Part shown: positions 1-17,309 of the stretch, piece by piece
How the letters are laid out: each line of letters starts with the position of its first letter
Position numbering within the stretch: position 1 is the first letter of the stretch
Origin: Lachnoanaerobaculum sp. OBRC5-5
GTDB taxonomy: Bacteria > Bacillota > Clostridia > Lachnospirales > Lachnospiraceae
Direction: 5' to 3'
Assembly: GCF_000296385.1 (NCBI RefSeq)
Contig: NZ_JH815185.1
Coordinates: 165,960-229,959 of the forward strand
Length of the DNA stretch: 64,000 nucleotides
Translations under genes and position numbers: made by a program
The notes under the pieces: generated by a model
What the model saw: only the letters and a program-made list of their open reading frames with translations
Database searches by the model: none
What the model was told of the DNA's origin: nothing

Positions 1-1
1 A

Positions 2-75
<74 letters not shown>

Positions 76-439
76 TGCATTGTTTTCTTAGCGAAGACGA
101 GCGAAAGCGAAGTCTGAGGTTAGAAAACAAGCACACCTTGCATAGCGAAGCGGAGCAATGGTGTTACCATAAGGAGAGACTACATCAGATATTCCTTTGG
201 AAAGGATGAAAGATGTTGAAGTTCGAATCTTTAAGTCTCATTTGCAGAGATATTCTCTACATGATGTACCTTGAAAACTGCATACCAAACGAGAAATTAT
301 ATAAATATTTTATAATTAGACATCCGAGGTATCAATTACTTTAAAGTAATTGATATTTAATAATAAAAATAAATTTTTAAACATAGTGTATGATACACGC
401 TAGTGTCATACATAAACACTAAATCTAAATGATTTAAGA
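76..439 (+). other. Distal 16S-23S internal transcribed spacer
   Basis: This 364-base stretch between tRNA-Ile and 23S has no gene. It holds a stem-loop formed by TTGTTTTCT (80-88) and AGAAAACAA (122-130). At 273-293 lies the 5' arm of the pre-23S processing stalk: GAAAACTGC, TACCAAA and CGAG here are complementary to sequence just after the 23S gene. The final 140 bases are AT-rich leader. Confidence 0.8.
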
Positions 440-3325
<2,886 letters not shown>

Positions 3326-3404
3326 AAAAGATAGGAAAAAATTTATAATAGCTCGGGATTTGGTAGGCAGTTTTGAGGGTGCATTCCCTTTTATAAAAAA
3401 ATAC
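3326..3404 (+). other. Pre-23S 3' processing arm; no 5S gene here
   Basis: CTCG (3352-3355), TTTGGTA (3359-3365) and GCAGTTTT (3367-3374) are the reverse complements of CGAG, TACCAAA and AAAACTGC at 274-293, so the two flanks of 23S can form the long stalk normally cut by RNase III. A weak GGGTGCATTCCC hairpin followed by TTTT (3377-3392) may end the rRNA transcript. A 5S gene, which usually follows 23S, is absent: the next gene is a tRNA with its own promoter. Confidence 0.75.
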
Positions 3405-3433
3405 TTGACAATTTATTCTTCACAGAGTAGAAT
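3405..3433 (+). promoter_or_regulatory. Promoter of the tRNA cluster
   Basis: TTGACA (3405-3410), a 17-base spacer and TAGAAT (3428-3433) form a near-consensus sigma-A promoter 12 bases before tRNA-Glu. It makes the five tRNAs independent of the rRNA operon promoter. Confidence 0.85.
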
Positions 3434-3445
3434 ATCACAGTATTC

Positions 3446-3517
3446 GGCCCCATGGTCAAGCGGTTAAGACATCGCCCTTTCACGGCGGTAACACGAGTTC
3501 AAATCTCGTTGGGGTCA
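3446..3517 (+). tRNA. tRNA-Glu (TTC)
   Basis: Acceptor GGCCCCA pairs with TGGGGTC with one G-U; the anticodon loop reads CTTTCAC with TTC; the T-arm is GAGTTCAAATCTC; discriminator A. First gene of the five-tRNA cluster. Confidence 0.95.
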
Positions 3518-4061: not shown

Positions 4062-4928
4062 TCAATTCTTAAGAATCTTAGGTAAAACTTCGGACAGTAT
4101 AAATGAAAATATTACAATTGCTCCACCTATAATGAGATTCTGAGTAAAAGACTCGTGTAAAAGTATTATTCCCATAACAGCAGCCATCACACTTTCAAGA
4201 GAGAGTAATACTCCGCTTGTTGTGGCGGATACATGTTTCATACCGTACAGTATTAAAAAGAAAGGTAAGGTTGTACAAAATACGGTAAGATATATTAACT
4301 GAAAGCTGTCTGAAAGATTTAAGGCAAAACTGTTATTTCCGATTAAAACTAATGACAGGATAGAAAGAATGGCCGTAGTGGAAACCTGCAATACATTCAA
4401 TATTCCGGAATCATAAAGTTTTGAGTACTTAGATGAAATAACAATATACAAAGCATAGTCAACAGCACAAAGTATGCAATATATATCACCGATATGAAAG
4501 CTTCCAAGATTATTACCTAAAATAAAGAATACGCCAATCATGCAGGTAACTGAAACAATTATATCGGATAATGAGGGTCTTTTTCTCATTATAAGAAGGT
4601 ATGCAAGTGGCATGAGTATAATATATGATGCAATAAGTAAAGATGAGCGTGAGGTTGTTGTATACTGTAAGCCGACTGTAAATGTAAAAAATTCTCCGAA
4701 AAGAAATATGCCCATTATTATACCGGCTTTTAATATTTCAAAATTTATCTTCAAGAGCTTTTTATTATAAATAAATACAAGTATTATTGCTGCAAAAGAA
4801 AATCTTAAAGACAATATCATATAAGGTGACACATCTTCTAAAAGCTGTTTTACAAAAATATAGGCTGAAGCCCAGAAGAATGTAGTAATAAATAATGCTA
4901 TAAAAGCCTGAATCTTTTCTCTATTCAT
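4062..4928 (-). CDS. EamA/DMT-family membrane transporter
   Basis: A 288-residue, highly hydrophobic protein with about ten membrane helices, the normal size of a drug/metabolite transporter built of two EamA repeats (about residues 8-140 and 150-285). The start has a GGGGGA ribosome site 7 bases upstream. The family exports amino acids, nucleobases or other small metabolites; nothing here fixes the substrate. It stands alone, divergent from the Hcp-linked operon and convergent to the tRNA cluster. Confidence 0.85.
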   Translation of the reverse strand: MNREKIQAFIALFITTFFWASAYIFVKQLLEDVSPYMILSLRFSFAAIILVFIYNKKLLKINFEILKAGIIMGIFLFGEFFTFTVGLQYTTTSRSSLLIASYIILMPLAYLLIMRKRPSLSDIIVSVTCMIGVFFILGNNLGSFHIGDIYCILCAVDYALYIVISSKYSKLYDSGILNVLQVSTTAILSILSLVLIGNNSFALNLSDSFQLIYLTVFCTTLPFFLILYGMKHVSATTSGVLLSLESVMAAVMGIILLHESFTQNLIIGGAIVIFSFILSEVLPKILKN

Positions 4929-5073: not shown

Positions 5074-5115
5074 TTAACATCGGTTACAGATTTTTTGTTG
5101 TACTCAAACTAGAAT
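5074..5115 (+). promoter_or_regulatory. Crp/Fnr-type operator and activator-dependent promoter
   Basis: TTAAC-ATCG-GTTAC (5074-5087) is an inverted repeat with one mismatch to GTAAC-N4-GTTAC. A -10 hexamer TAGAAT sits at 5110-5115, so the repeat centre is 29.5 bases before the first -10 base, close to -41.5 from the expected start. The -35 position (5087-5092, CAGATT) is poor. This is class II activator geometry, and the same layout occurs upstream of hcp. Confidence 0.7.
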
Positions 5116-5183
5116 ATGATTTACCTATAGTATTAGCCGGGACTTACTTATCCGGCTTTGTTTAATCAGTTAAAGGAGTTTAT

Positions 5184-6404
5184 ATGAATAAATACTTTGA
5201 TATAAAAGATAAAGTATATGATGTTACAGAGAAGTACCCTGAGCTTATAGAAGTATTGTCAGGGGCAGGATTTGAGAATTTAAAGAATGACATGATGAGA
5301 AAATCAATGGGAAAACTTCTCAGTCTTGAAACCGCTTTAAAGAGTAAGAATATAAATGTTGAGGTATTTGAAAAGCAACTTGTAGAGGCCATTGAGAGAA
5401 AGACTGTGATGTCTGATAATAACGGCATTGTAAGAAATCAGGATGAAAATGCAAAGACCTCTATAAAGGGTATATTGCCATGTCCTGTAAGAATGCAGTT
5501 TATAGAAAAGTTTGAAAAGTTTGTGGAAAGTCAGGACTATGAAATAAACTACAATCTGAATGCTGCAAGTATGGGAATGGAAGCAATTGAAGAAGAAATA
5601 AGGAATGCAAAGACGGAAGACGATTTATCTGATGTATATATGTCGGCAGGGTTTAACTTGTTTTTTGATAAGAAATTGATGGGCAAGTTCAGAGATAAGG
5701 GTGTCTTTGTAGACTATAGACAGGGAAAATTAAATAAATCTCTAGATAACGGAATGATTTCCTTAAAGGATCCGAAAGGAGAATATTCTATAATAGGTGT
5801 TGTTCCTGCTATTTTTATTGTAAATAAGGATGTACTGGGAGACAGAAGTTTACCTGTTTCATGGGAAGATTTATTTAAGCCTGAGTTTGAAAACTCAATA
5901 GCACTTCCTACTTCAGATTTGGATATGTTTAATGCAATTATGCTTGGAATATATTCAAATTACGGAAGAAAAGCCGTTGAGGCGCTTGGAAGAGGGCTTT
6001 TAAAGTCAATGCATCCTGCACAGATGGTAAAGACCGGAGGAAGAAAAGATTTCAATACACCTGCAGTAAGTATTATGCCTTATTTCTTCTCAAAGACCAT
6101 AAAGGAAAATTCAAACCTTACAGTGGTTTGGCCAAAGGACGGAGCTATAATAAGCCCTGTATTCCTTTTGACAAGAAAGAAAAACTATGAAAACAGTAAA
6201 CCTTTAATAGATTTTCTGTTATCAAAAGAAGTGGCGGAAATATTGGGTGCAGACGGAAAATTCCCACAGACAAACCCTGAATATGATAATAAACTTGCAG
6301 ATGATCAAAACTTCCTTTGGGCAGGATGGGATTTTATTCATTCAAATGATATCGGAGAAATCCTTTCAAATACTGAAAAATGGTTTTACGGTCAGACAGA
6401 ATAA
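5184..6404 (+). CDS. DUF1858 domain plus binding-protein-like domain, cytosolic
   Basis: 406 residues. Residues 1-72 match the DUF1858 pattern (a small domain linked to hybrid cluster proteins). Residues about 90-400 resemble an iron-type periplasmic binding protein, with PVRMQF, VPAIFIVNKDVLG and the SWEDLFKPEF region typical of such folds. There is no signal peptide or lipobox: the protein begins directly with the DUF1858 domain, so it should stay in the cytoplasm. That is odd for a binding protein, and no permease is encoded nearby. An AAAGGAG site precedes the ATG. First gene of a four-gene operon ending in a Crp/Fnr regulator. I infer it carries a metal or cluster ligand inside the cell; the ligand is unknown. 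Confidence 0.75.
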   Translation: MNKYFDIKDKVYDVTEKYPELIEVLSGAGFENLKNDMMRKSMGKLLSLETALKSKNINVEVFEKQLVEAIERKTVMSDNNGIVRNQDENAKTSIKGILPCPVRMQFIEKFEKFVESQDYEINYNLNAASMGMEAIEEEIRNAKTEDDLSDVYMSAGFNLFFDKKLMGKFRDKGVFVDYRQGKLNKSLDNGMISLKDPKGEYSIIGVVPAIFIVNKDVLGDRSLPVSWEDLFKPEFENSIALPTSDLDMFNAIMLGIYSNYGRKAVEALGRGLLKSMHPAQMVKTGGRKDFNTPAVSIMPYFFSKTIKENSNLTVVWPKDGAIISPVFLLTRKKNYENSKPLIDFLLSKEVAEILGADGKFPQTNPEYDNKLADDQNFLWAGWDFIHSNDIGEILSNTEKWFYGQTE

Positions 6405-6418
6405 GGAGAGATTAATAT

Positions 6419-7117
6419 ATGAATTTAGTTATATTTTCAGGTCCTCCTTCATCGGGAAAGACCTCTGTTATTTTAAAAACTATTGAAGCAATGAAGGATA
6501 GAGGTATAAAGGCGGGAGTTGTAAAGTTTGACTGTTTATATACCGATGACGATATCATATATGAAAAGGCAAACATTCCTGTAAAGAAAGGACTTTCGGG
6601 AGGACTTTGTCCCGATCATTTCTTTGCATCAAATATTGAAGATGTTGTGAAATGGGGAAGGGAACAAGGTCTGGATCTGCTTATTACAGAGTCGGCAGGA
6701 CTTTGTAATCGCTGTTCACCTTATATTACAGATATAAAAGGTGTATGTGTAATAGATAATCTCTCAGGTATAAATACACCTAAAAAAATAGGACCTATGT
6801 TAAAGGCGGCGGATATCGTAGTCATAACAAAGGGAGATATAGTAAGTCAGGCGGAGAGAGAAGTATTCAGCGGTAGAGTAAGTGCGGTAAATCCGAGAGC
6901 CATGGTAATGAATGTAAACGGACTCAGCGGTCAGGGAGCATTCGAGTTGTCTACATTAATATATGACAATGAAGTAAATATTGAGTCGGTACAGGGAATG
7001 AAGCTCAGGTTTGCAATGCCTTCGGCAATGTGCTCTTATTGTCTGGGAGAAACCAGAATAGGAGAAGATTACCAATTAGGTAATACCAAGAAGATGCAAT
7101 GGGAGGCAAATAAATGA
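6419..7117 (+). CDS. HypB/UreG-like P-loop GTPase with Cys motifs
   Basis: 232 residues with a P-loop GPPSSGKTS (8-16), an ESAG segment (91-94) in the position of the G3 region, and TKGD (137-140) in place of the usual NKxD guanine-specificity motif. The end of the domain (GLSGQGAFEL) resembles HypB. Possible metal ligands are C64-P-D-H67 (compare the CPH of UreG), C96/C99 and C205-x2-C208. Such GTPases deliver nickel or other metals to enzyme active sites. It lies 14 bases after the binding-protein-like gene and overlaps the next gene by 4 bases. I infer a metal-insertion chaperone; the target is unproven. Confidence 0.75.
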   Translation: MNLVIFSGPPSSGKTSVILKTIEAMKDRGIKAGVVKFDCLYTDDDIIYEKANIPVKKGLSGGLCPDHFFASNIEDVVKWGREQGLDLLITESAGLCNRCSPYITDIKGVCVIDNLSGINTPKKIGPMLKAADIVVITKGDIVSQAEREVFSGRVSAVNPRAMVMNVNGLSGQGAFELSTLIYDNEVNIESVQGMKLRFAMPSAMCSYCLGETRIGEDYQLGNTKKMQWEANK

Positions 7118-8148
7118 GTGAAATAAAATTAAAAGAGTTACTGGAAAAATATCCTTTTGCTACAGATTTCTTTGAGAGCGCAGGCTTTGATATCACTGAA
7201 AGTTTGGATGCAACTTTTTCTGAATTTTTGGATGGATTTACCGAAGAAGAACTTGAAGAAACAGCAATAAATAAGGATGAATTAAAAATCCAGCTTGACA
7301 CATTCATCAAGCAAATGCTACAATTCCTTGGTGATAATAAAGAAAAAATAGAAAGTTTAACTATTTTTCCAGGTCATAACAAAAGTGGAGAAAGAGAAAA
7401 TTGTGAAAAATTTGACATTTTCTCTTCACAAATTGTGTCTATAGTTGGACCTACAGGATCCGGAAAGAGTAGATTGTTGGCTGACATTGAATGGGCAGCA
7501 CAAAATGATACCCCTACCGGTAGAACCATATATATAAATGGTAAAAAGCCGGATCCGAAATGGCGATATTCTACAAATAATAAATTGGTTGCACAATTGT
7601 CACAAAATATGAACTTTGTTATGGATCTTACAGCCCGTGAATTTATAACCATGCATGCGGAAAGCAGAATGGTCGAAGACATCGAGACTGTAGTTGAAAA
7701 GATCCTACATGAAGCAAATAAACTTGCCGGAGAAAGTTTTGCACCTGAGACAGCAGTCACAGCTCTAAGCGGAGGTCAATCCAGAGCTCTTATGATTGCG
7801 GATACGGCAGTTCTAAGTTCTTCACCAATCGTTTTGATTGATGAGATTGAAAATGCCGGAATAGACAGAAAGAAGGCTTTAGACCTTTTGATATCACAGG
7901 ATAAGATAGTCCTTATGGCTACTCATGATCCTCTGTTGGCATTGATGGCGGATAAGAGAATCGTTATCAAAAACGGCGGAATTGATAAGATAATAGAAAC
8001 TACGGCAGAAGAAAAAGAAGTTTTAGTGCAACTGAATTATATTGACGGAATTATGCAAGAATCTAGAAAAAGGTTGCGTGCGGGTATGACGCTTGAAGGA
8101 GATATATGTCAGGAAGTTATACACAGTCCCCACTCTTTAGGGGAATGA
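7114..8148 (+). CDS. Soluble ABC ATPase with DUF1858-like N-terminus
   Basis: 344 residues. Residues 1-70 form a helical region resembling a degenerate DUF1858 domain. The ABC domain has Walker A GPTGSGKS (112-119), LSGGQ (218-222), Walker B IVLIDE (239-244) and the switch His (MATHD, H271). It contains no membrane helices, and no permease gene is near, so ordinary import is unlikely. ABC ATPases without permeases act in Fe-S assembly (SufC) or other mechanochemical roles. The start ATG overlaps the upstream TGA, which implies translational coupling. Confidence 0.8.
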   Translation: MSEIKLKELLEKYPFATDFFESAGFDITESLDATFSEFLDGFTEEELEETAINKDELKIQLDTFIKQMLQFLGDNKEKIESLTIFPGHNKSGERENCEKFDIFSSQIVSIVGPTGSGKSRLLADIEWAAQNDTPTGRTIYINGKKPDPKWRYSTNNKLVAQLSQNMNFVMDLTAREFITMHAESRMVEDIETVVEKILHEANKLAGESFAPETAVTALSGGQSRALMIADTAVLSSSPIVLIDEIENAGIDRKKALDLLISQDKIVLMATHDPLLALMADKRIVIKNGGIDKIIETTAEEKEVLVQLNYIDGIMQESRKRLRAGMTLEGDICQEVIHSPHSLGE

Positions 8149-8777
8149 CTGAAGAAGAGATAGAGCTTTGCTTAAAAGAGGCAAAGGCCGATATCCTCGG
8201 TTTCAGAAAAGGTGAGATGATTTTCAATCAGGGAGACAAACCAAGATACATTACCATGTTGGTTGAGGGTAGTGTATCTGTAGGAAATGACTCCGTGAAC
8301 GGAAAAAGAAGTATATTAGGTATGTTTTCAAACCCCGGAGAGCTTTTCGGAGAGGTTTTTTTGTTTTTAAATCATGATGAGTATGCAAATTATGCATGTG
8401 CAAGTTCTCCAAGTAGGATTTTGGAGATACCAAAAGAGTATCTTACAAGACTTGGGGATAAGCCTTCACCGCTCCAAAATAAAATGCTCTCAAATTTGCT
8501 CACAATATTTGCGGAGAGGACATACTATTTAAATAACAGATTACAGGTATTGTCATGTTCAACATTGAAGCAAAAAATCGCAAGATTTATATTGCAGAAT
8601 ATGAATGACAGAGACAGGGTTACTCTTAAGATGAGCAGAGAAGAGTTTGCAGACTTTTTAAATGCCGCAAGACCTTCACTCTCAAGAGAACTTATGAAAA
8701 TGCAGGAAGACGGATATATAAAGGTCGTAAGAAAAGATCTTATAGTAAAAAATCTGGAAGGACTTAAAAGTCTTTAA
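8106..8777 (+). CDS. Crp/Fnr-family regulator, HcpR-like
   Basis: 223 residues: an N-terminal cyclic-nucleotide-type beta-barrel (about 10-125), a dimer helix, and a C-terminal winged helix whose recognition helix contains RPSLSRELMKM (near 195-205). There is no N-terminal Cys cluster like that of Fnr. The gene overlaps the ABC ATPase by 43 bases and has a GAAGGAG site before its ATG. Crp/Fnr proteins called HcpR are known to control hcp genes in anaerobes. The adjacent hcp and two matching inverted repeats make this a likely nitrosative-stress regulator that also controls its own operon. Confidence 0.85.
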   Translation: MSGSYTQSPLFRGMTEEEIELCLKEAKADILGFRKGEMIFNQGDKPRYITMLVEGSVSVGNDSVNGKRSILGMFSNPGELFGEVFLFLNHDEYANYACASSPSRILEIPKEYLTRLGDKPSPLQNKMLSNLLTIFAERTYYLNNRLQVLSCSTLKQKIARFILQNMNDRDRVTLKMSREEFADFLNAARPSLSRELMKMQEDGYIKVVRKDLIVKNLEGLKSL

Positions 8778-8793
8778 AAAAAAACATTGCTCG

Positions 8794-8835
8794 GTAACTA
8801 AAGTTACAGTTTTTGGATTTTATTTCTGCTATTAT
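8794..8835 (+). promoter_or_regulatory. Crp/Fnr-type operator and promoter of hcp
   Basis: GTAAC-TAAA-GTTAC (8794-8807) is a perfect inverted repeat. The -10 TATTAT is at 8830-8835, again with 29.5 bases from repeat centre to the first -10 base, and the -35 position (CAGTTT) is again weak. Both sites continue as GTTACAG followed by a T-rich stretch. This matches the site at 5074-5115 in sequence and geometry. Confidence 0.8.
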
Positions 8836-8931
8836 ACACTCATGCACAGGATGCAAGAGAAAATAAATTTAAATCTGTAAAGACAGATTGCTCATAGACT
8901 GTAGAACAGTCATAGTAAGAGGAGGTAAAAA

Positions 8932-10782
8932 ATGGAAAACAAAATGTTTTGTTATCAGTGTCAGGAGACAGCAGGAAATACAGGCTGTACTCAGGTAGGT
9001 GTTTGCGGTAAGAAGCCGGAAGTTGCAAATATGCAGGACTTGCTTATATATGTAAGTAAGGGTATATCAGCAGTTACAACAAGACTTCGTGCAGAAGGAA
9101 AAGAAATAAGCAAGGAAGTAAACCACCTTATTACTTTAAACCTTTTCATCACAATTACAAATGCAAACTTTGATAATGATGCTATTATTGCAAGAATCAA
9201 GAAGACTCTTGATGTTAAGAAGGAACTTTTAAATGAACTTTCAAACAAAGATAATCTTCCTGAGGCTGCTCTTTGGGAGTCATATGATGAGAGCGAGTAT
9301 CTTACAAAGGCTGCTACAGTAGGTGTACTTGCAACAGAAAACGAGGATATCAGAAGCCTTAGAGAGCTTATTATATACGGTCTTAAGGGACTTTCAGCAT
9401 ATTCAAAGCATGCAAATGCACTTTTACAGGATGACGGTGAGGTAGATGCATTCTTACAGAGAGCATTGGCTGCAACACTTGATGACAGCTTAACTGCAGA
9501 TGATTTAGTAGCACTTACACTTGAGACAGGTAAGTATGGTGTAAACGGAATGGCTTTACTTGATAAGGCAAACACAACAGCTTACGGAAACCCTGAGATT
9601 ACAACAGTTGATATCGGTGTAGGAACAAACCCTGGTATCCTTGTTTCAGGACATGATTTAAGAGATCTTGAGATGCTCTTAAAGCAGACACAGGGAACAG
9701 GAGTAGATGTTTATACTCACTCAGAGATGCTTGCAGGTCAGTATTATCCTGAGCTTAAGAAGTATCCAAACCTTAAGGGTAACTACGGTAATGCATGGTG
9801 GAAGCAGAAAGAAGAGTTCGAGAGCTTTAACGGACCGATCCTTATGACTACAAACTGTATCGTACCACCTAAGGCAAGTTATATTGACAGACTTTATACA
9901 ACAGGTTCAGCAGGTTATCCGGGATGTAAGCACATCGCAGGTGATATCGGTGAGGAGAAGGATTTCTCAGAGATTATTGAGCAGGCTAAGAAGTGTGCAC
10001 CTCCAACAGAGATAGAGAGCGGAAATATCGTAGGCGGTTTTGCACATGCACAGGTTCTTGCACTTGCAGATAAGGTAGTAGATGCTGTTAAATCAGGTGC
10101 TATTTCAAAGTTCGTTGTAATGGCAGGTTGTGACGGTCGTTCAAAGGCAAGAAACTACTACACAGATTTTGCAAAGGCTCTTCCAAAGGATGCCGTTATT
10201 CTTACAGCAGGATGTGCTAAGTACAAGTACAATAAGCTTGACCTTGGAGATATCGGTGGTATTCCAAGAGTTCTTGATGCAGGTCAGTGTAATGACTCTT
10301 ATTCATTGGCAGTTATCGCACTTAAGCTTAAGGAAGTATTCGGACTTGATGATATCAATGATCTTCCGCTTGAGTTCAACATTGCATGGTATGAGCAGAA
10401 GGCAGTTATCGTTTTACTTGCACTTTTATACTTAGGTGTAAAGAATATTCACCTCGGACCTACACTTCCGGGATTCCTTTCACCAAATGTAGCTAAGGTA
10501 TTGGTTGAGAACTTCGGTATTGCAGGTATCGGAACAGTTGAGGATGATATCGAGCTTTTCTTCGGAAAGGTTGAGAAGGAAGTTGCTGACGGAAAGTACA
10601 GACCTGATATGCTTATCGGTGAGGTACTCTCAGAGAACCCTGCTGCAGCAAGCGTTCTTATGGATATCGGTATGCACTGCCTCGGATGTCCTTCATCACA
10701 GATGGAGTCACTTGCAGAGGCTGCTATGGTACACGGTATCGATGTAAATGAACTTATCAGCAGATTAAATCAGTTAGGATAA
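8932..10782 (+). CDS. hcp: Hybrid cluster protein (Hcp) with C-terminal DUF1858 domain
   Basis: 616 residues. The N-terminal ligands C7-x2-C10-x8-C19-x5-C25 hold the ordinary Fe-S cluster. Motifs of the hybrid Fe-S-O site follow ([60 protein letters not shown]). Hcp acts in the cytoplasm as a nitric oxide or hydroxylamine reductase in nitrosative stress. After the normal end at about residue 550 comes an extra domain with CLGCP, the Hcp-associated redox-disulfide (DUF1858) type. AGAGGAGG precedes the ATG. Codon use looks optimised for high expression. It has its own promoter after the Crp/Fnr gene. Confidence 0.96.
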
Positions 10783-10800
10783 TTTATATAGATAAAAAGA

Positions 10801-10830
10801 TAGCCCGGATTTAAAAGTCCGGGCTATTTT
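10801..10830. terminator. Bidirectional terminator between hcp and the AraC gene
   Basis: TAGCCCGGA (10801-10809) and TCCGGGCTA (10818-10826) form a perfect 9-bp stem, flanked by A-rich sequence on the left and TTTT on the right. It serves hcp and overlaps the 3' end of the convergent AraC-type gene. Confidence 0.85.
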
Positions 10831-11725: not shown

Positions 11726-11966
11726 AATTCTCCATTTTAATATAAATTCATATTTAAAATACATTCATGAGATATATTTTATTTTGTTCAAGTTTTAATT
11801 GCAATAATAAATCTTTGTAAGTGTATTCGATTTTATAGTTAGTTTACGAAATAACAATCATTGAATATGGTATAAAAGTTAAAACCACGTATAAATGTAG
11901 TTTAAACGGATAATAATAAACAAAGAACTTGAAATCAATTACAAATCGACAAATTTATATAACATT

Positions 11967-11995
11967 TTGAAATGCATGACAAAAATAATTATATT
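11967..11995 (+). promoter_or_regulatory. Promoter in the AraC/ABC divergent region
   Basis: The 305 bases from 11726 to 12030 hold no gene. TTGAAA (11967-11972), a 17-base spacer and TATATT (11990-11995) form a likely promoter 35 bases before the binding-protein gene. TAGTTTA occurs twice (near 11840 and 11898), which might be AraC half-sites; that is weak evidence. Confidence 0.55.
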
Positions 11996-12030
11996 ATTAT
12001 AAGACCATGAAATTTAAGGGAGGACTTAAA

Positions 12031-13341
12031 ATGATTAAGAAAAAATTACTTGGTTTAGCACTATCATCAATGATGGTATTATCTTTGGCGGCTTGTGGCG
12101 GATCATCAGGCGGAGCTGATAAATCATCTGCAGCTGCAGACAGCTCACAAAGCGGCGGTGAGGGTGGAAAGATAACAGTTGCTATATGGGATAACGGACA
12201 AAAGCCGGGATTACAGGAAATCATAAATGATTTTACTGCAGAAACAGGATATCAGGTAGATCTTCAGGTAATCTCATGGGACGCATATTGGACATTACTT
12301 GAGGCGGGTGCTTCAGGCGGAGATATGCCTGATGTATTCTGGATGCACTCAAATGAGTCACAAAAATATATGGAAAACGATATCCTTATGGATCTTACAG
12401 ACAAAATCAAGGCAAGCGATAAGCTTGAGATGGATAAATTCCCTGAAGATGTTAAGGAGTTATACGTAAGTGACGGTAAGACATATGCTATACCAAAGGA
12501 TGTGGATACAATAGCACTTTGGTACAATAAGACTATGTTTGATGAGGCAGGTCTTGCATATCCTGATGAAAACTGGACATGGGATGATTACTATGATGCG
12601 GCTGTAAAGCTCACAAAGCCTGACGGAAGCCAGTTCGGTACAGCTATGAATCCTTCAAACAACCAGGACGGATGGTACAATATAGTATATTCAATGGGTG
12701 GTAAGGTTATTTCAGATGATAAGAAAAAATCCGGAATGGATGACCCTAATACTATAAAGGCAATGGAGTTTGTTGATAAGCTCAGAAAAGATGCTATGCC
12801 TGATGCTACCGTAATGTCTGAGACAGGTACAGATGTACTCTTACAGTCAGGTAAAATCGCTATGCTCCCACAGGGCTCATGGATGGTTGCTCCATTTAAA
12901 GAGAATGAGTATCTTGTTGCAAACTGTGATGTAGCTGTACTTCCAAAGGATGCAACTACAGGTAAGAGAGTAAGTCTTTATAACGGTCTCGGATGGGCTG
13001 CAAATGCCGGTACAAAGAATCCTGAGGCTGCATGGAAGCTTATCGAGTGGTTCTCAACAAAGGATAATCAGGAGAAGCAGGCAAAGCTTGGTGTAACAAT
13101 GGCGGCATATGAGGGTGTATCTGATTTGTGGAAAAACAATACAGATAAGTTCAACCTTGAGCCATATTTGACAATGTTAAATGACAGTGACCTTGTAATC
13201 AGACCACACTCAAGAGCGACAGTAGTTTGGGAAAACAAGAACACAGCAAATCTTGTAGAGGCTTGGAGCAATAAGGTAAGTATAGATGAGGCATGTAAGA
13301 AGGCCGCATCCGATATGAATGAACTGTTGTCACAGGAATAA
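12031..13341 (+). CDS. Sugar ABC transporter substrate-binding lipoprotein
   Basis: 436 residues from the ATG at 12031, which has GGGAGGA 7 bases upstream (an in-frame ATG at 12007 lacks a site). A lipoprotein signal peptide ends in LSLAAC. A Ser/Gly-rich linker is followed by a family 1 binding domain (ITVAIWDNGQKPGLQEIIND..., then YAIPKDVDTIALWYNK). It should be anchored outside the membrane and capture oligosaccharides for the two permeases downstream. The neighbouring alpha-galactosidase suggests raffinose, melibiose or related substrates. No ATPase gene is present, so a shared MsmK-type ATPase elsewhere probably powers import. Confidence 0.9.
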   Translation: MIKKKLLGLALSSMMVLSLAACGGSSGGADKSSAAADSSQSGGEGGKITVAIWDNGQKPGLQEIINDFTAETGYQVDLQVISWDAYWTLLEAGASGGDMPDVFWMHSNESQKYMENDILMDLTDKIKASDKLEMDKFPEDVKELYVSDGKTYAIPKDVDTIALWYNKTMFDEAGLAYPDENWTWDDYYDAAVKLTKPDGSQFGTAMNPSNNQDGWYNIVYSMGGKVISDDKKKSGMDDPNTIKAMEFVDKLRKDAMPDATVMSETGTDVLLQSGKIAMLPQGSWMVAPFKENEYLVANCDVAVLPKDATTGKRVSLYNGLGWAANAGTKNPEAAWKLIEWFSTKDNQEKQAKLGVTMAAYEGVSDLWKNNTDKFNLEPYLTMLNDSDLVIRPHSRATVVWENKNTANLVEAWSNKVSIDEACKKAASDMNELLSQE

Positions 13342-13358
13342 TTGATGCATTTACCCGG

Positions 13359-13380
13359 AGCCGCTACATTTGTAGCGGCT
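13359..13380 (+). terminator. Hairpin between binding-protein and permease genes
   Basis: AGCCGCTAC and GTAGCGGCT form a perfect 9-bp stem with an ATTT loop; only a weak CTTTG follows. Such intercistronic hairpins usually give partial termination or protect the upstream mRNA, giving more binding protein than permease. Confidence 0.65.
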
Positions 13381-13400
13381 CTTTGTAATAAGGAGAATAT

Positions 13401-14291
13401 ATGAATAAAAGTAGGATGACACCAAGACAAAAGAGTGAGCTAAGATGGGGATGGGCTTTTATGTTTCCGACAGTCTTAGGACTATTGGTACTTAATATTT
13501 ACCCTACATTTAGAACGATATATCAAAGCTTTTTCAAAACAGGAGATTTTGGAAAAGGAAATAAATTTGTAGGATTCGGAAATTATATAAAACTTTTTCA
13601 AGGAACTGAGATATGGCAGGCAATTATAAATACCTTCAAATATGCTATAGTTGAAGTGCCTTTTTCAATAGCGATAGCTTTGGTACTTGCCGTATTCTTA
13701 AACGGAAAAATAAAGGGAAGAGGTATTTATCGTACCGTTTTCTTCCTTCCGATGGTTGCTGCACCTGCTGCAGTGGCAATGGTATGGAGATGGCTTTACA
13801 ATTCCGAGTTCGGTCTTATAAATAATATTTTCCATTTGAAAGTAAACTGGATATCAGACCCTAATCTGGCTGTATATTCTATTGCTATAATAGGTATATG
13901 GTCGATAATCGGTTATAATATGATACTTTTTATTTCCGGATTGCAGGAAATACCAAGTGACTACTACGAGGCGTCAAGTCTTGACGGTGCAAGCGGGATA
14001 CATCAGTTTTTTAATATTACAATACCTTTACTTTCACCTACTATATTCTTTGTAAGTATTACCAGAGTAATAGGCGGATTCATGGTGTTTGATCTTATAT
14101 ACATGGTAATGGACAGAGATAACCCTGCACTGCCAAAGACTCGGTCTTTAGTATTCTTATTCTATCAGTATGCTTTCAGAAATCAGGATAAGGGAATGGG
14201 AGCTGCAGTTGTGGTAATTTTATTGTTAATTATCATTATTATCACCGCATTACAGATGTTGGCACAGAAAAAATGGGTTCATTATAATTAG
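13401..14291 (+). CDS. Sugar ABC transporter permease, MalF type
   Basis: 296 residues with six predicted membrane helices and the cytoplasmic EAA loop (YEASSLDGASGIHQFF) that contacts the ATPase. It belongs to the MalF/UgpA-like group. An AAGGAGAA ribosome site precedes the ATG. It is the second gene of the alpha-galactoside operon and would pair with the next protein to form the membrane channel. Confidence 0.9.
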   Translation: MNKSRMTPRQKSELRWGWAFMFPTVLGLLVLNIYPTFRTIYQSFFKTGDFGKGNKFVGFGNYIKLFQGTEIWQAIINTFKYAIVEVPFSIAIALVLAVFLNGKIKGRGIYRTVFFLPMVAAPAAVAMVWRWLYNSEFGLINNIFHLKVNWISDPNLAVYSIAIIGIWSIIGYNMILFISGLQEIPSDYYEASSLDGASGIHQFFNITIPLLSPTIFFVSITRVIGGFMVFDLIYMVMDRDNPALPKTRSLVFLFYQYAFRNQDKGMGAAVVVILLLIIIIITALQMLAQKKWVHYN

Positions 14292-14299
14292 GAGGAGAT

Positions 14300-15112
14300 A
14301 TGAAATTAAATAAACTTTTAATTCATGTGATACTTATCATGGTATCCATAACTATGATCGTACCCTTTGCATGGATGGCACTTACAGCTTTTAAAACGGT
14401 AACAGAGTCTACATCTGTGAATCCGTTTACTATATTTCCTGCAAAATGGATAACTTCAAATTTCACTGAAGTCATCAACAATATGGACTTTATGAAATTA
14501 TATCTGAACACATTATTGCTTATAGTCGGAAGAGTATTTTTTGCGGTAATGACATCCACCATAGCAGGTTATGCATTGGCAAGACTTGATTTTCCGGGAA
14601 AAACTGTGTGCTTCGGACTTGTACTTTTCCAAATGATGGTTCCAAGTCAGATATTTATTATTCCGCAGTACCTTATGGTAAGTAAGCTTGGAATGCTTGA
14701 TACAATATTTGCCCTTATATTCCCGGGACTTGTATCGGCTTTTGGAACATTCCTTCTTAGACAGACATTTATGTCACTCCCAAGAGATCTGGAAGAGGCT
14801 GCAAGAATAGACGGATGCAATATCGGACAGACATTTTTGCTTATTATGATGCCGCTTGTTCGTTCGGGAATGATTGCACTGGGTATCTTCACAGCTGTTT
14901 TTGCATACAAGGATCTTATGTGGCCGATGATCGTAAATAAGAATGTTATGCCGCTTTCAGCAGCACTTGCCAAAATGCAGGGACAGTATACAAACAACTA
15001 TCCACAACTGATGGCAGCTTCACTACTTGCCTGTATTCCTATGATAATTCTATATCTGATATTCCAAAAGCAGTTTGTAGAAGGTATAGCGACATCAGGT
15101 GGAAAATTATAA
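14300..15112 (+). CDS. Sugar ABC transporter permease, MalG type
   Basis: 270 residues, six membrane helices, and an EAA loop (EEAARIDGCNIGQTFLLIM) near residue 160. It has an AGGAGG site and begins 8 bases after the MalF-type gene, so the two are translated together as a heterodimeric permease. Confidence 0.9.
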   Translation: MKLNKLLIHVILIMVSITMIVPFAWMALTAFKTVTESTSVNPFTIFPAKWITSNFTEVINNMDFMKLYLNTLLLIVGRVFFAVMTSTIAGYALARLDFPGKTVCFGLVLFQMMVPSQIFIIPQYLMVSKLGMLDTIFALIFPGLVSAFGTFLLRQTFMSLPRDLEEAARIDGCNIGQTFLLIMMPLVRSGMIALGIFTAVFAYKDLMWPMIVNKNVMPLSAALAKMQGQYTNNYPQLMAASLLACIPMIILYLIFQKQFVEGIATSGGKL

Positions 15113-15128
15113 AACAAATGAGGTTTTT

Positions 15129-17309
15129 ATGTCTATTAAATTAAACGGTAATTTAATTACTCTTTCAACAAAGAATACATCATATCAGATGAAGTTTGAT
15201 GACTTAGGTTATCTCTTCCACACATGGTATGGTGAAAGAATAGAAGACAGTGACGATATGTCCTATAGAATCAGCAGTATAGACAGAGGTTTTAGCGGAA
15301 ATCCGTATGAGACAATGGATAGAAGCTATTCTTTGGATGTATATCCACAGGAATATCCTACTTTTGGAAACGGGGATTACAGAGTCGACTGCATTCAGGT
15401 AATAAATCCTGACGGTACAAATGTAGTGGAATTAAAATATGACTCATGTGAAATCAAAAAGGGAAAATATGATTTGCCGGGACTTCCTGCATTTTTTTGG
15501 AATGAGGAAGAGGGTGAGAGTCTTAAAGTAAATCTTATAGATAAGGTAAGCGGAGTAAGAGTAGAGCTTTTGTATGGTGTACTTGAAAAATATGATATTA
15601 TTACAAGAGCTGTTAGAATAGTAAATACATCTGCAAATGAACTCAAAATAGAAAAGGCACTTTCAGCATGTATAGATATGGTGGACGGTGATTTTGATCT
15701 TATACACTTCCATGGAAAGCATGCTATGGAAAGAGAGTTTGAGAGAAGTCCTCTGTTACACGGAAAGATGGTACTTGAAAGCAAGAGAGGTACCTCAAGC
15801 CATCAGCAAAATCCTTTTGCAATACTTGCAAAAAAGGATGCTACAGAAACTTTTGGTGAATGTGTGGGTGTTGCATTTGTATATAGCGGTTCATTTATAA
15901 TTGAAGCGGAAATAGATCAGGTAAATCAGACAAGGCTTGTCGTAGGTCTTCATCCTGAGCAGTTTGAATATATATTGAATGCAGGTGAAGAGCTTGTACT
16001 TCCTGAGGTTGCATTTACATATTCAAATGCAGGCTTTGAGAAAATGACACATTCATTCCATGATGCCGTAAGACAAAATCTTCAGCAGGGAGAATTTGTA
16101 CATAAGCACAGACCGATACTTATAAATAACTGGGAAGCTACATATTTTGACTTTAATGCAGACAAGATCTTCGATATCGCATCAAAGGCAAAGAGCCTTG
16201 GAATAGAGCTTTTGGTTATGGATGACGGATGGTTCGGAGAAAGATATGATGATCTTAGAGGGCTCGGTGACTGGTATGTAAACGAGGAGAAACTCGGTTC
16301 ATCATTAAAGGAATTGGTTGATCGTATCAATGCAATAGATATGAAATTCGGTATCTGGTTTGAGCCTGAGATGATAAATGAGGATTCAAGACTTTACAGA
16401 GAGCATCCTGATTTTATGATTAGAGTGCCAAACAGAAAGGGTGTAAAGGCAAGAAGCCAGTATGTACTTGATTTTACCAGGAAAGATGTCAGAGAATATA
16501 TTAAAGATATGATGGTGAAAATACTTGACAATGCAAATATCGAGTATATCAAATGGGATATGAACAGAAGCTTGTCTGCGGTATATTCTGCTAATCTTTC
16601 CGCAAAGAGTATGGGAGAGTTCCATTACAGATATGTTCTCGGCCTTTATGACTTACTTGGTGAACTTACAAAGAAGTATCCGAATATTATGTTTGAGGGC
16701 TGTTCAGGCGGCGGCGGAAGATATGATCTCGGTATGCTTTACTACTATCCTCAAATCTGGTTAAGTGATGATACCGACGCTGTTGAAAGATTGAAAATAC
16801 AGTATGGAAGTTCATTTGCATACCCTATCGGAAGTGCAGGTGCACATGTATCCGCATCACCTAATCATCAAACTACAAGGAAAACACCTTTTGAAACAAG
16901 AGCTACCGTAGCCATGGGAGGCACTTTCGGATATGAGCTTGATTTGAACAAGGTATCTGAAAAAGAGCAGGAGCAGGTGAAGTCTCAGGTTAAGGATTAT
17001 CTGAAATATGATGAGCTTATACATGAAGGCGATTACTACAGAATTACAAGTCCATACGATAAATCAAGAGTAACTGCTTGGCAGGTTCTTTCAAAGGATA
17101 AATCATTCGGTCTTTTAAGTGCGGTGGTACAGGCTGCAGAGGCGAATGAGTCAAATATCTATATTTATCCGAGAGGCCTTGAAGACAATGCTTATTATGA
17201 GATAGCAGGTGAAAAAAGGCGAGGAAAAGTTTGGATGAAGGGTGGAGTTTTAATTCCGAGAATTAAAGAAGAGTACGAGTCATTCAGATTCGAAATAAAA
17301 AGAGTATAG
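15129..17309 (+). CDS. Alpha-galactosidase, glycoside hydrolase family 36
   Basis: 726 residues from the ATG at 15129 (an in-frame GTG at 15099 overlaps the permease gene and has no clear ribosome site). The N-terminal beta-sandwich is followed by a catalytic barrel with MDDGWFGERYDD, KWDMNR (likely nucleophile Asp477), GCSGGGGRYD and LSDDTDA (likely acid/base Asp547). No signal peptide is seen, so it should hydrolyse imported alpha-1,6-galactosides such as melibiose or raffinose in the cytoplasm. The length matches the bacterial AgaA/AgaB type. Last gene of the operon. Confidence 0.95.
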   Translation: MSIKLNGNLITLSTKNTSYQMKFDDLGYLFHTWYGERIEDSDDMSYRISSIDRGFSGNPYETMDRSYSLDVYPQEYPTFGNGDYRVDCIQVINPDGTNVVELKYDSCEIKKGKYDLPGLPAFFWNEEEGESLKVNLIDKVSGVRVELLYGVLEKYDIITRAVRIVNTSANELKIEKALSACIDMVDGDFDLIHFHGKHAMEREFERSPLLHGKMVLESKRGTSSHQQNPFAILAKKDATETFGECVGVAFVYSGSFIIEAEIDQVNQTRLVVGLHPEQFEYILNAGEELVLPEVAFTYSNAGFEKMTHSFHDAVRQNLQQGEFVHKHRPILINNWEATYFDFNADKIFDIASKAKSLGIELLVMDDGWFGERYDDLRGLGDWYVNEEKLGSSLKELVDRINAIDMKFGIWFEPEMINEDSRLYREHPDFMIRVPNRKGVKARSQYVLDFTRKDVREYIKDMMVKILDNANIEYIKWDMNRSLSAVYSANLSAKSMGEFHYRYVLGLYDLLGELTKKYPNIMFEGCSGGGGRYDLGMLYYYPQIWLSDDTDAVERLKIQYGSSFAYPIGSAGAHVSASPNHQTTRKTPFETRATVAMGGTFGYELDLNKVSEKEQEQVKSQVKDYLKYDELIHEGDYYRITSPYDKSRVTAWQVLSKDKSFGLLSAVVQAAEANESNIYIYPRGLEDNAYYEIAGEKRRGKVWMKGGVLIPRIKEEYESFRFEIKRV

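Follow-up and report, generated by a model that had tools for sequence, protein, structure and literature searches.

Which proteins build the iron-sulfur-oxygen (Fe-S-O) cluster of the hybrid cluster protein Hcp, and which keep it under nitric oxide (NO), is the question raised by a locus of Lachnoanaerobaculum sp. OBRC5-5. The window analysed here is the whole stretch of 64,000 nucleotides (nt) from contig NZ_JH815185.1 (positions 165,960 to 229,959), in which four genes are coupled ahead of hcp. They are designated A (DUF1858/binding-protein gene), B (GTPase-like), C (ATP-binding cassette, ABC, ATPase) and D (Crp/Fnr regulator); L- and G-numbers are survey labels for loci and genomes. The products of A, B and C are three candidate proteins for this task. 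Gene identity, the conserved A-B-C unit, the operators common with hcp and the lack of a conserved permease are read directly from the sequences. We propose, with a probability of roughly 45%, that A-B-C would be a soluble two-nucleotide machine in the predicted HcpR NO regulon, handling metal or Fe-S for NO-damaged metalloproteins.

The strongest evidence is shared regulation: the trio operon carries the operator of hcp across distant anaerobes, even apart from hcp. This operator, GTAACnnnnGTTAC, is of the HcpR2 kind, which the text of Rodionov et al. (2005, PMC1274295) ties to a proline at CRP position 181. The features of the locus are as follows.

5074 to 5087, + strand: HcpR2-like operator TTAACATCGGTTAC 5' of A, agreeing with 9 of the 10 consensus positions of GTAACnnnnGTTAC as given in the text of PMC1274295.
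5184 to 6404, + strand: gene A, DUF1858 (residues 7-61) and a SBP_bac_6, ferric-binding-protein-like fold; no signal peptide seen.
6419 to 7117, + strand: gene B, P-loop GTPase resembling HypB/UreG and bearing the motifs CPDH, CxxC and, at the C-terminus, CSYC.
7114 to 8148, + strand: gene C, ABC ATPase without a transmembrane region; its N-terminal helical domain (about residues 1-75) is probably DUF1858-like.
8106 to 8777, + strand: gene D, HcpR2-type Crp/Fnr regulator, with NAARPSLSREL as recognition helix and proline at the CRP 181 equivalent.
8794 to 8807, + strand: HcpR2 operator GTAACTAAAGTTAC 5' of hcp, exact consensus.
8932 to 10782, + strand: hcp, hybrid cluster protein, nearest solved structure 1gn9, with a DUF1858/TIGR03980 tail (residues 558-613).
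10797 to 10830, + strand: intrinsic terminator-like hairpin 3' of hcp, 15 pairs and a T tail.

The five genes A, B, C, D and hcp are all intact open frames on the + strand. A gap of 14 nt separates A from B, B and C overlap by 4 nt, C and D by 43 nt, and 154 nt lie between D and hcp. In Pfam, A matches DUF1858 (59.8 bits) and SBP_bac_6 (255.4 bits), B the cobW/HypB/UreG domain (47.5 bits), C ABC_tran (55.6 bits), D cNMP_binding and HTH_Crp_2, and Hcp both Prismane (596.5 bits) and a C-terminal DUF1858 (73.7 bits). Hcp scores 764.2 bits against TIGR01703 (cut-off 360.8) and its residues 3-545 match the solved 1gn9 with 916 bits. Gene order, frames and family identities thereby bear out the initial annotation of this DNA, which had described four genes coupled ahead of hcp.

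Gene D carries the proline expected of HcpR2 (numbering by our own alignment). Among 23 Crp/Fnr genes of the fetched loci, the corresponding residues read RPS in 13 and RET in all six from Halanaerobiales (6/6), differ in three and are gapped in one. Exact matches to TAACnnnnGTTA occur twice in the window, at 5075-5086 before A and at 8795-8806 before hcp; this count is ordinary (31 of 100 shuffles reach 2), while the positions are unusual. Over the surveyed loci, an exact operator lies within 300 nt 5' of A in 32 of 74 (22 of 32 hcp-linked loci and 10 of 42 others) and within 300 nt 5' of hcp in 25 of 36. It precedes other genes of at least 90 amino acids (aa) in 14 of 901 cases, several of these being divergent partners of one intergenic site. 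The enrichment 5' of A relative to other genes has p = 1e-28, a value overstated, like that for co-occurrence below, because related loci are not independent. Linkage to hcp cannot be judged for seven of the ten unlinked operator-bearing loci, since their contigs end within 2.8 kb 3' of C.

The operator is shared also where trio and hcp are separate. Exact sites were searched in 13 genomes, namely that of the window, G152 and G185, in which Hcp was not matched, and ten that have hcp outside the fetched trio locus. In eight of these ten (G153, G154, G158, G160, G162, G166, G170, G192) an exact site precedes the separate hcp by about 90-175 nt, and in G166 this hcp lies about 12 kb from the trio on the same contig; no exact site was found 5' of the separate hcp of G163 and G182. 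In five of the ten the trio was read with more than 8 kb of flank on either side (L050, L051, L057, L060, L063), and there the site precedes the trio in 5/5 and the separate hcp in 4/5. Since operators are shared with hcp, also at a distance, A-B-C is a predicted member of the HcpR (NO) regulon. In the accessible text of PMC12915319, NO-dependent induction of hcp and frdX in C. difficile requires HcpR, and knockdown of either gene results in NO sensitivity. The heme of P. gingivalis HcpR binds NO, according to the available part of a 2025 report (PMC12750200).

Broader motif searches were less telling. A genome-wide search allowing one mismatch was uninformative, the reversed control being commoner than the motif. 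Exact sites were present in 19 of 20 further stretches, 14 of those 19 inside a called open reading frame (ORF). In one stretch an exact HcpR2 site covers codons 3-7 of a flavodiiron-type gene (L250:2006-3232); this gene was set aside as a regulon member, as a site overlapping codons 3-7 may be there by chance.

Halanaerobiales depart from this pattern in regulator and operators alike. Near the trio, all six regulators carry RET helices of the CRP type, and matches to TGTGACnnnnGTCACA with at most 3 mismatches are found upstream of A in 12/12 and upstream of hcp in 8/8 cases, over a background, these matches counted in, of 0.25 per kb; those of the A promoters are weak in L086, L094 and L099. 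As judged from these sequences, which come from related loci, this is one specificity switch altering the regulator and both promoters. The switch is seen at L066, L073, L075, L081, L086, L097 and L180-L182.

The conservation of the unit was assessed by scanning a species-genome collection with the B alignment, which yielded at least 588 stretches, 571 of those listed being B relatives. The locus survey covers the best 80 of the 571 listed, and 78 were scored because B was called by the ORF picker. The closest relatives are on Lachnoanaerobaculum contigs (95-100% identity). A lies directly 5' of B in 77/78 scored loci and C directly 3' in 77/78, which exceeds what chance would give; hcp is within 9 kb of B in 34/78, and anywhere in the fetched stretch in 35/80. 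The hcp counts are lower bounds, as several contigs end near the trio. Other common neighbours among the 78 loci are a Crp/Fnr gene (21) and the gene of an 83-aa zinc-ribbon-like protein (17). This is the neighbourhood survey that the initial annotation had called for.

Gene order varies around the constant core, and B and C are fused in L039. The order A-B-C-hcpR-hcp is found in Lachnoanaerobaculum, Johnsonella, Pectinatus and Treponema parvum, A-B-C-83aa-hcp in Tissierellia, and A-B-C-hcp in Petrocella, Tepidimicrobium, Clostridium ultunense and three further genomes of one family. In Halanaerobium hcp is upstream of the trio and crp is divergent. A tree was drawn for 118 B proteins, 40 of them labelled as hcp-linked; the label needs 16 changes, at least 4 of them forced by starred branches, and is found in neither of the two sister groups described below (a quick tree with long branches). 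The 83-aa protein (MHEGCSG... CxxC; L087:11801-12052 and 16 further loci) is encoded directly after C and often ahead of hcp. It has a weak HypA-like zinc ribbon (20.2 bits, cut-off 28.9), which would fit a metallochaperone set as far as sequence likeness goes.

Genomes that carry the trio mostly carry Hcp as well. Hcp is above its curated cut-off in 46/50 and 36/38 genomes of two trio- or B-bearing sets, with two genomes common to both (L060 = G144, L118 = G003). No such Hcp was matched in L049, L071, L082, L094, L103 and L108; four of these six are records of metagenome-assembled genomes, and L071 has an hcp fragment at a contig end. An even sample of the phylum comprised 398 genomes, in which B of any subfamily (E <=1e-20) was found in 51 and Hcp (E <=1e-60) in 279, 275 of them above cut-off. 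Hcp was matched in 46/51 genomes with B versus 233/347 without (Fisher p = 5e-4, kinship ignored), and in 10/10 genomes with hcp-type B (E <1e-126). In a family sample of 150 genomes, a Prismane-family protein was present in 9/9 with B at <1e-50 versus 65/141 others, the family including carbon monoxide (CO) dehydrogenase. The second Prismane-family gene of the window's own genome (L042:7563-9722) is a CO dehydrogenase with a histidine-rich N-terminus. Recurrent linkage, high co-occurrence and shared HcpR-type operators uphold the view of a soluble, permease-free A-B-C unit coupled to hcp.

A number of results, together with the overstated p-values, weigh against the proposed role of A-B-C. 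The complete chromosome of Leptotrichia hongkongensis (L108) has the trio and no Hcp match, and is a true exception. In the phylum sample five of the 51 B-bearing genomes (G411, G445, G541, G576, G612) are without Hcp and 233 of the 279 Hcp-bearing ones without a B match, and at six loci of the window's own family (L034-L038, L040) the trio has no hcp in 13-19 kb. No recognisable HcpR2 site was found at the trio loci of Lacrimispora, Faecalispora and several others. Exact sites number 2-6 per genome and total 50, versus 60 for the control pattern (forward matches, 13 genomes), so that only operator positions are informative. As to the proteins, the G4 motif of B is TKGD rather than NKxD (T137, K138 and D140 being invariant), which leaves its GTP specificity uncertain; the closest folds to A include sugar-phosphate, pyridoxal-phosphate and polyamine binders too. 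The fold search with C was unspecific, a SUF-like Fe-S complex chain coming second among many similarly scoring transporter ATPases. Finally, frdX and hcp alone are the direct HcpR targets found in C. difficile, according to the accessible text of PMC12915319, which counts against obligatory cluster loading; this comparison is paper-based, the genome not having been scanned for the trio.

These results bear most heavily on the narrower reading of the initial annotation, in which A-B-C is a maturase dedicated to Hcp, making or repairing its hybrid Fe-S-O cluster exclusively. Operators common with hcp even when the two are apart, recurrent linkage, Hcp in most trio genomes and DUF1858 domains in A as well as some Hcp tails all speak for it. 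Obligatory loading of the cluster is not supported, however, when only 46 of 279 Hcp-bearing genomes match B and L. hongkongensis has the trio without Hcp, and in C. difficile the protection given by Hcp goes with frdX as the sole other direct HcpR target found (PMC12915319, same text). The occurrence of homologues in many genomes without hcp, which the annotation had itself regarded as contrary evidence, is borne out in part, as some genomes carry the genes without hcp. We consider exclusive maturation of Hcp unlikely.

The trio without Hcp would be accounted for if A-B-C served NO-damaged metalloproteins in general, by repair or by iron management, in parallel to RIC/YtfE and with its regulator in common with Hcp. 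That operators are in common, rather than linkage strict, also agrees with this, as do a ScdA/RIC gene near hcp in Halanaerobium (L075) and the SUF operon directly 3' of the trio in L074. In the latter (11910-16811) C is followed on its own strand, after about 190 nt, by sufC, sufB, a SufD-like gene, sufS and sufU. In L085 (15711-17880) SufC and SufB are encoded 4 kb beyond the trio, past an opposite-strand operon, and five other Lacrimispora-type loci share the SUF neighbour clusters. This neighbourhood is, however, limited to one lineage, and hcp is the commonest neighbour after A and C, which suggests more than a common regulator. A general module is possible, if somewhat doubtful.

The anatomy of the proteins is compatible with metal handling. 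Trimmed B queries were used, whole-B phmmer and hmmsearch queries having produced repeat-summing artefacts (PPR, fused RecA chains). In 34 aligned B sequences, the window's included, C39, C64-P-D-H67, C96, C99, C110, C205 and C208 are invariant, so that the motifs C64-P-D-H67, C96/C99 and C205/C208 singled out at first sight hold throughout; CPDH sits opposite the CPH of UreG in the alignment. In A, P99-C100-P101 is invariant over 42 rows, and the predicted model (mean predicted local distance difference test score 87) resembles P5PA, FbpA, FutA and AfuA. C keeps Walker A (GPTGSGKS) and the signature LSGGQ. In line with its first description, no signal peptide was seen in A: it starts with DUF1858, and neither A nor C showed a hydrophobic segment when the near-identical locus L033 was crudely scanned. 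A metal or Fe-S function of A-B-C is plausible from these sequences.

The initial annotation had also placed DUF1858-type domains in A, at the C-terminus of Hcp and probably at the N-terminus of C. The first two are over cut-off; the N-terminal domain of C scores 15.9 bits, under the Pfam cut-off of 32.2. A profile comparison of this domain with the DUF1858 of A gives P = 2e-4 and a probability of 46% over 61 columns, and its predicted helices follow the same order, so it is likely, though not proven, to be DUF1858-like. The idea of the shared small domain as a docking or redox element is weak, since the Hcp tail is inconstant and cysteine is absent from the window's DUF1858-type domains in both A and C. 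Among linked Hcps of more than 500 aa the tail is present in 4/33, all from Lachnoanaerobaculum, and only those four exceed 600 aa. It is also found in 5/10 further Hcps from trio- or B-bearing genomes (six chosen for long open frames), so that the tail is neither constant nor genus-specific, and its interpretation as an oddity of one genus was dropped. In five trio genomes (L255-L259) a C-terminal DUF1858-like tail occurs on Hcps unlinked to the trio.

A binding-protein fold in A and an ABC ATPase in C could be parts of an importer whose permease is encoded elsewhere. Around 85 hcp-type loci, 95 membrane proteins (>=4 predicted segments, <900 aa) are encoded within five genes of B, among them 16 with an ABC exporter region, 7 EamA and 5 BPD_transp_1. 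No permease family is consistent near B in these loci, FecCD being outside the 25 most frequent families; L034, L035 and L037 have other ABC transporter sets a few kb from the trio. ABC permease genes do stand beside the sister subfamilies, with 12 BPD_transp_1 and 5 FecCD among 34 membrane proteins at 20 loci. Where the sets are readable (L187, L188, L190, L194, L201, L203), an ATPase and a binding protein of its own accompany the permease. The permease neighbour named beforehand as contrary evidence is consequently a matter of the sister groups only, hcp-type loci having no conserved permease. With A starting with DUF1858 and no signal peptide or hydrophobic segment seen, the transporter reading was rejected for the hcp type, and import through a distant permease is hardly credible.

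EamA-type genes also occur beside some trios: one (window 4062-4928) is divergent from A in Lachnoanaerobaculum, and relatives sit 3' of C in L052, L059 and L063. Farther 5', the open-frame pattern of window 1-3500 gives the impression, and only that, of a ribosomal RNA operon.

The sister groups of B show what else the B-C pair is associated with. In 40 phylum-wide stretches C adjoins B except in L196, where the contig ends, and L193, which has a called 89-aa ORF between them. The first sister group has a binding protein without DUF1858. Single loci of this group have FecBCD beside B-C (L039, L187, L188, L190, L194), DUF364 and NTPase_1 (L190), a ModE-like domain (L204) or a WtpA-like binding protein with MOT1 (L198), which suggests that these pairs are a molybdenum/tungsten or other metal version. 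In the distant group C mostly precedes B and a protein of some 220 aa is encoded next, as also in L209, L210, L211, L213, L216 and L218. In L208 (7007-7672), the only one scanned, this protein has the PF04060 Fe-S motif, and its PPGKNCGxCG start is shared elsewhere. C-B and the 220-aa protein form a separate conserved trio of anaerobes.

Genes of molybdenum type raise the prospect that the hcp-type trio is itself a molybdenum or tungsten trafficking module recruited into the NO regulon. Besides the sister loci with DUF364, ModE-like and WtpA-like/MOT1 genes, some hcp-type trios have such neighbours: MoeA-like and DUF364 genes near L035, FdhD and a MobA-like gene 5' in L107, and a MoaD-like gene 5' in L105. 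MoaC is nevertheless missing in 13/40 hcp-type genomes, including complete Treponema parvum and the single-contig G456, while it is present in 11/11 of the first sister group and 5/6 of the distant group. The hcp-type trio is thus not dependent on molybdenum cofactor in general, which weakens this reading, and we regard it as quite unlikely.

It may be, although the odds are a little short of even, that the B-C core represents a new class of metallocluster machine with exchangeable binding subunits, loading or repairing NO-sensitive clusters with the Hcp hybrid cluster foremost. The subunits would be the DUF1858 carrier with Hcp, other carriers with FecBCD or molybdenum/tungsten-type genes, and the Fe-S-domain protein. 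If true, the B-C pair would amount to an energy-coupled device of general use for the metal sites of anaerobes, one that present annotation hides as 'ABC transporter' and 'GTPase'.

In the mechanism that we favour, A-B-C acting on metal or Fe-S in the HcpR regulon, NO would activate HcpR, encoded by gene D or by a homologue at another place in the genome, and A-B-C and hcp would be co-transcribed. A would be a cytoplasmic ferric-binding-protein-like carrier, its invariant cysteine near the start of the binding domain, and could hold metal or a small iron(-sulfur) species. B, of the HypB/UreG type with its Cys/His motif, and C, without a membrane partner like SufC, would drive transfer of the ligand. 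We infer these roles from the motifs of A and B, the fold of A and the ATPase motifs of C. Transfer may go into or out of NO-damaged metalloproteins, with Hcp as the likeliest client or co-worker. NO induction, a physical complex, the ligand, the use of the metal sites and the client are the predicted parts of this scheme.

Cytosolic binding-protein folds can serve as sensors, and A might instead bind an NO-derived or metal ligand in the cytoplasm, with B and C signalling to HcpR or another factor. The overlap of D with C in the window would agree with such a regulatory module. A Crp/Fnr gene is near in just 21/78 loci, however, and two nucleoside triphosphatases are unusual in a sensor, so that we judge it very unlikely.

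The trio is not described in the literature searched, a scope that leaves aside bioRxiv, most subscription journals and supplementary tables. The available text of a survey of 1,476 HCP genes (PMC13056359, eLife 2026), which found the neighbours too varied for interpretation, does not mention it, and the accessible parts of PMC10502027 and PMC8593673 name no HCP maturation factor. In the text of PMC1274295, apart from its Table S1 and figures, the regulon members are hcp, frdX and ferredoxin-, hemerythrin- and cytochrome-like genes, with A-B-C unnamed; Table S1 or RegPrecise may list these genes.

Among known systems, B is like HypB and UreG in its P-loop, E-S-x-G, C-P-x-H-like motif and cobW Pfam domain. 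It is far under the cut-offs of both (48.4/121.2 bits for HypB, 30.7/204.2 for UreG), and differs from them by TKGD in place of NKxD, the extra C-terminal CSYC and an ABC ATPase partner. C resembles SufC/SmsC as a soluble ABC ATPase, with a SMS-complex chain as second-best fold match and a SUF operon following the L074 trio. Unlike SufC, it has an extra N-terminal domain and no SufB/SufD in the conserved unit, and among the best 25 NCBIfam matches listed for C there is no sufC model, those listed being transporter-type ATPases. The likeness of A to FbpA/FutA is in the predicted fold; A differs in having no signal peptide, an N-terminal DUF1858, the invariant PCP and no cognate permease. RIC/YtfE (ScdA) is likewise NO-responsive and Fe-S related, according to the accessible text of PMC8593673, and is near hcp in Halanaerobium; it is a hemerythrin-like protein with ScdA_N whose fold differs from those of B and C, and its N-terminus matches DUF1858 weakly (17.6 bits). 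With the HcpR/HcpR2 regulon, as the text of PMC1274295 describes it, the locus has in common the position-181 proline branch and the operator GTAACnnnnGTTAC before hcp.

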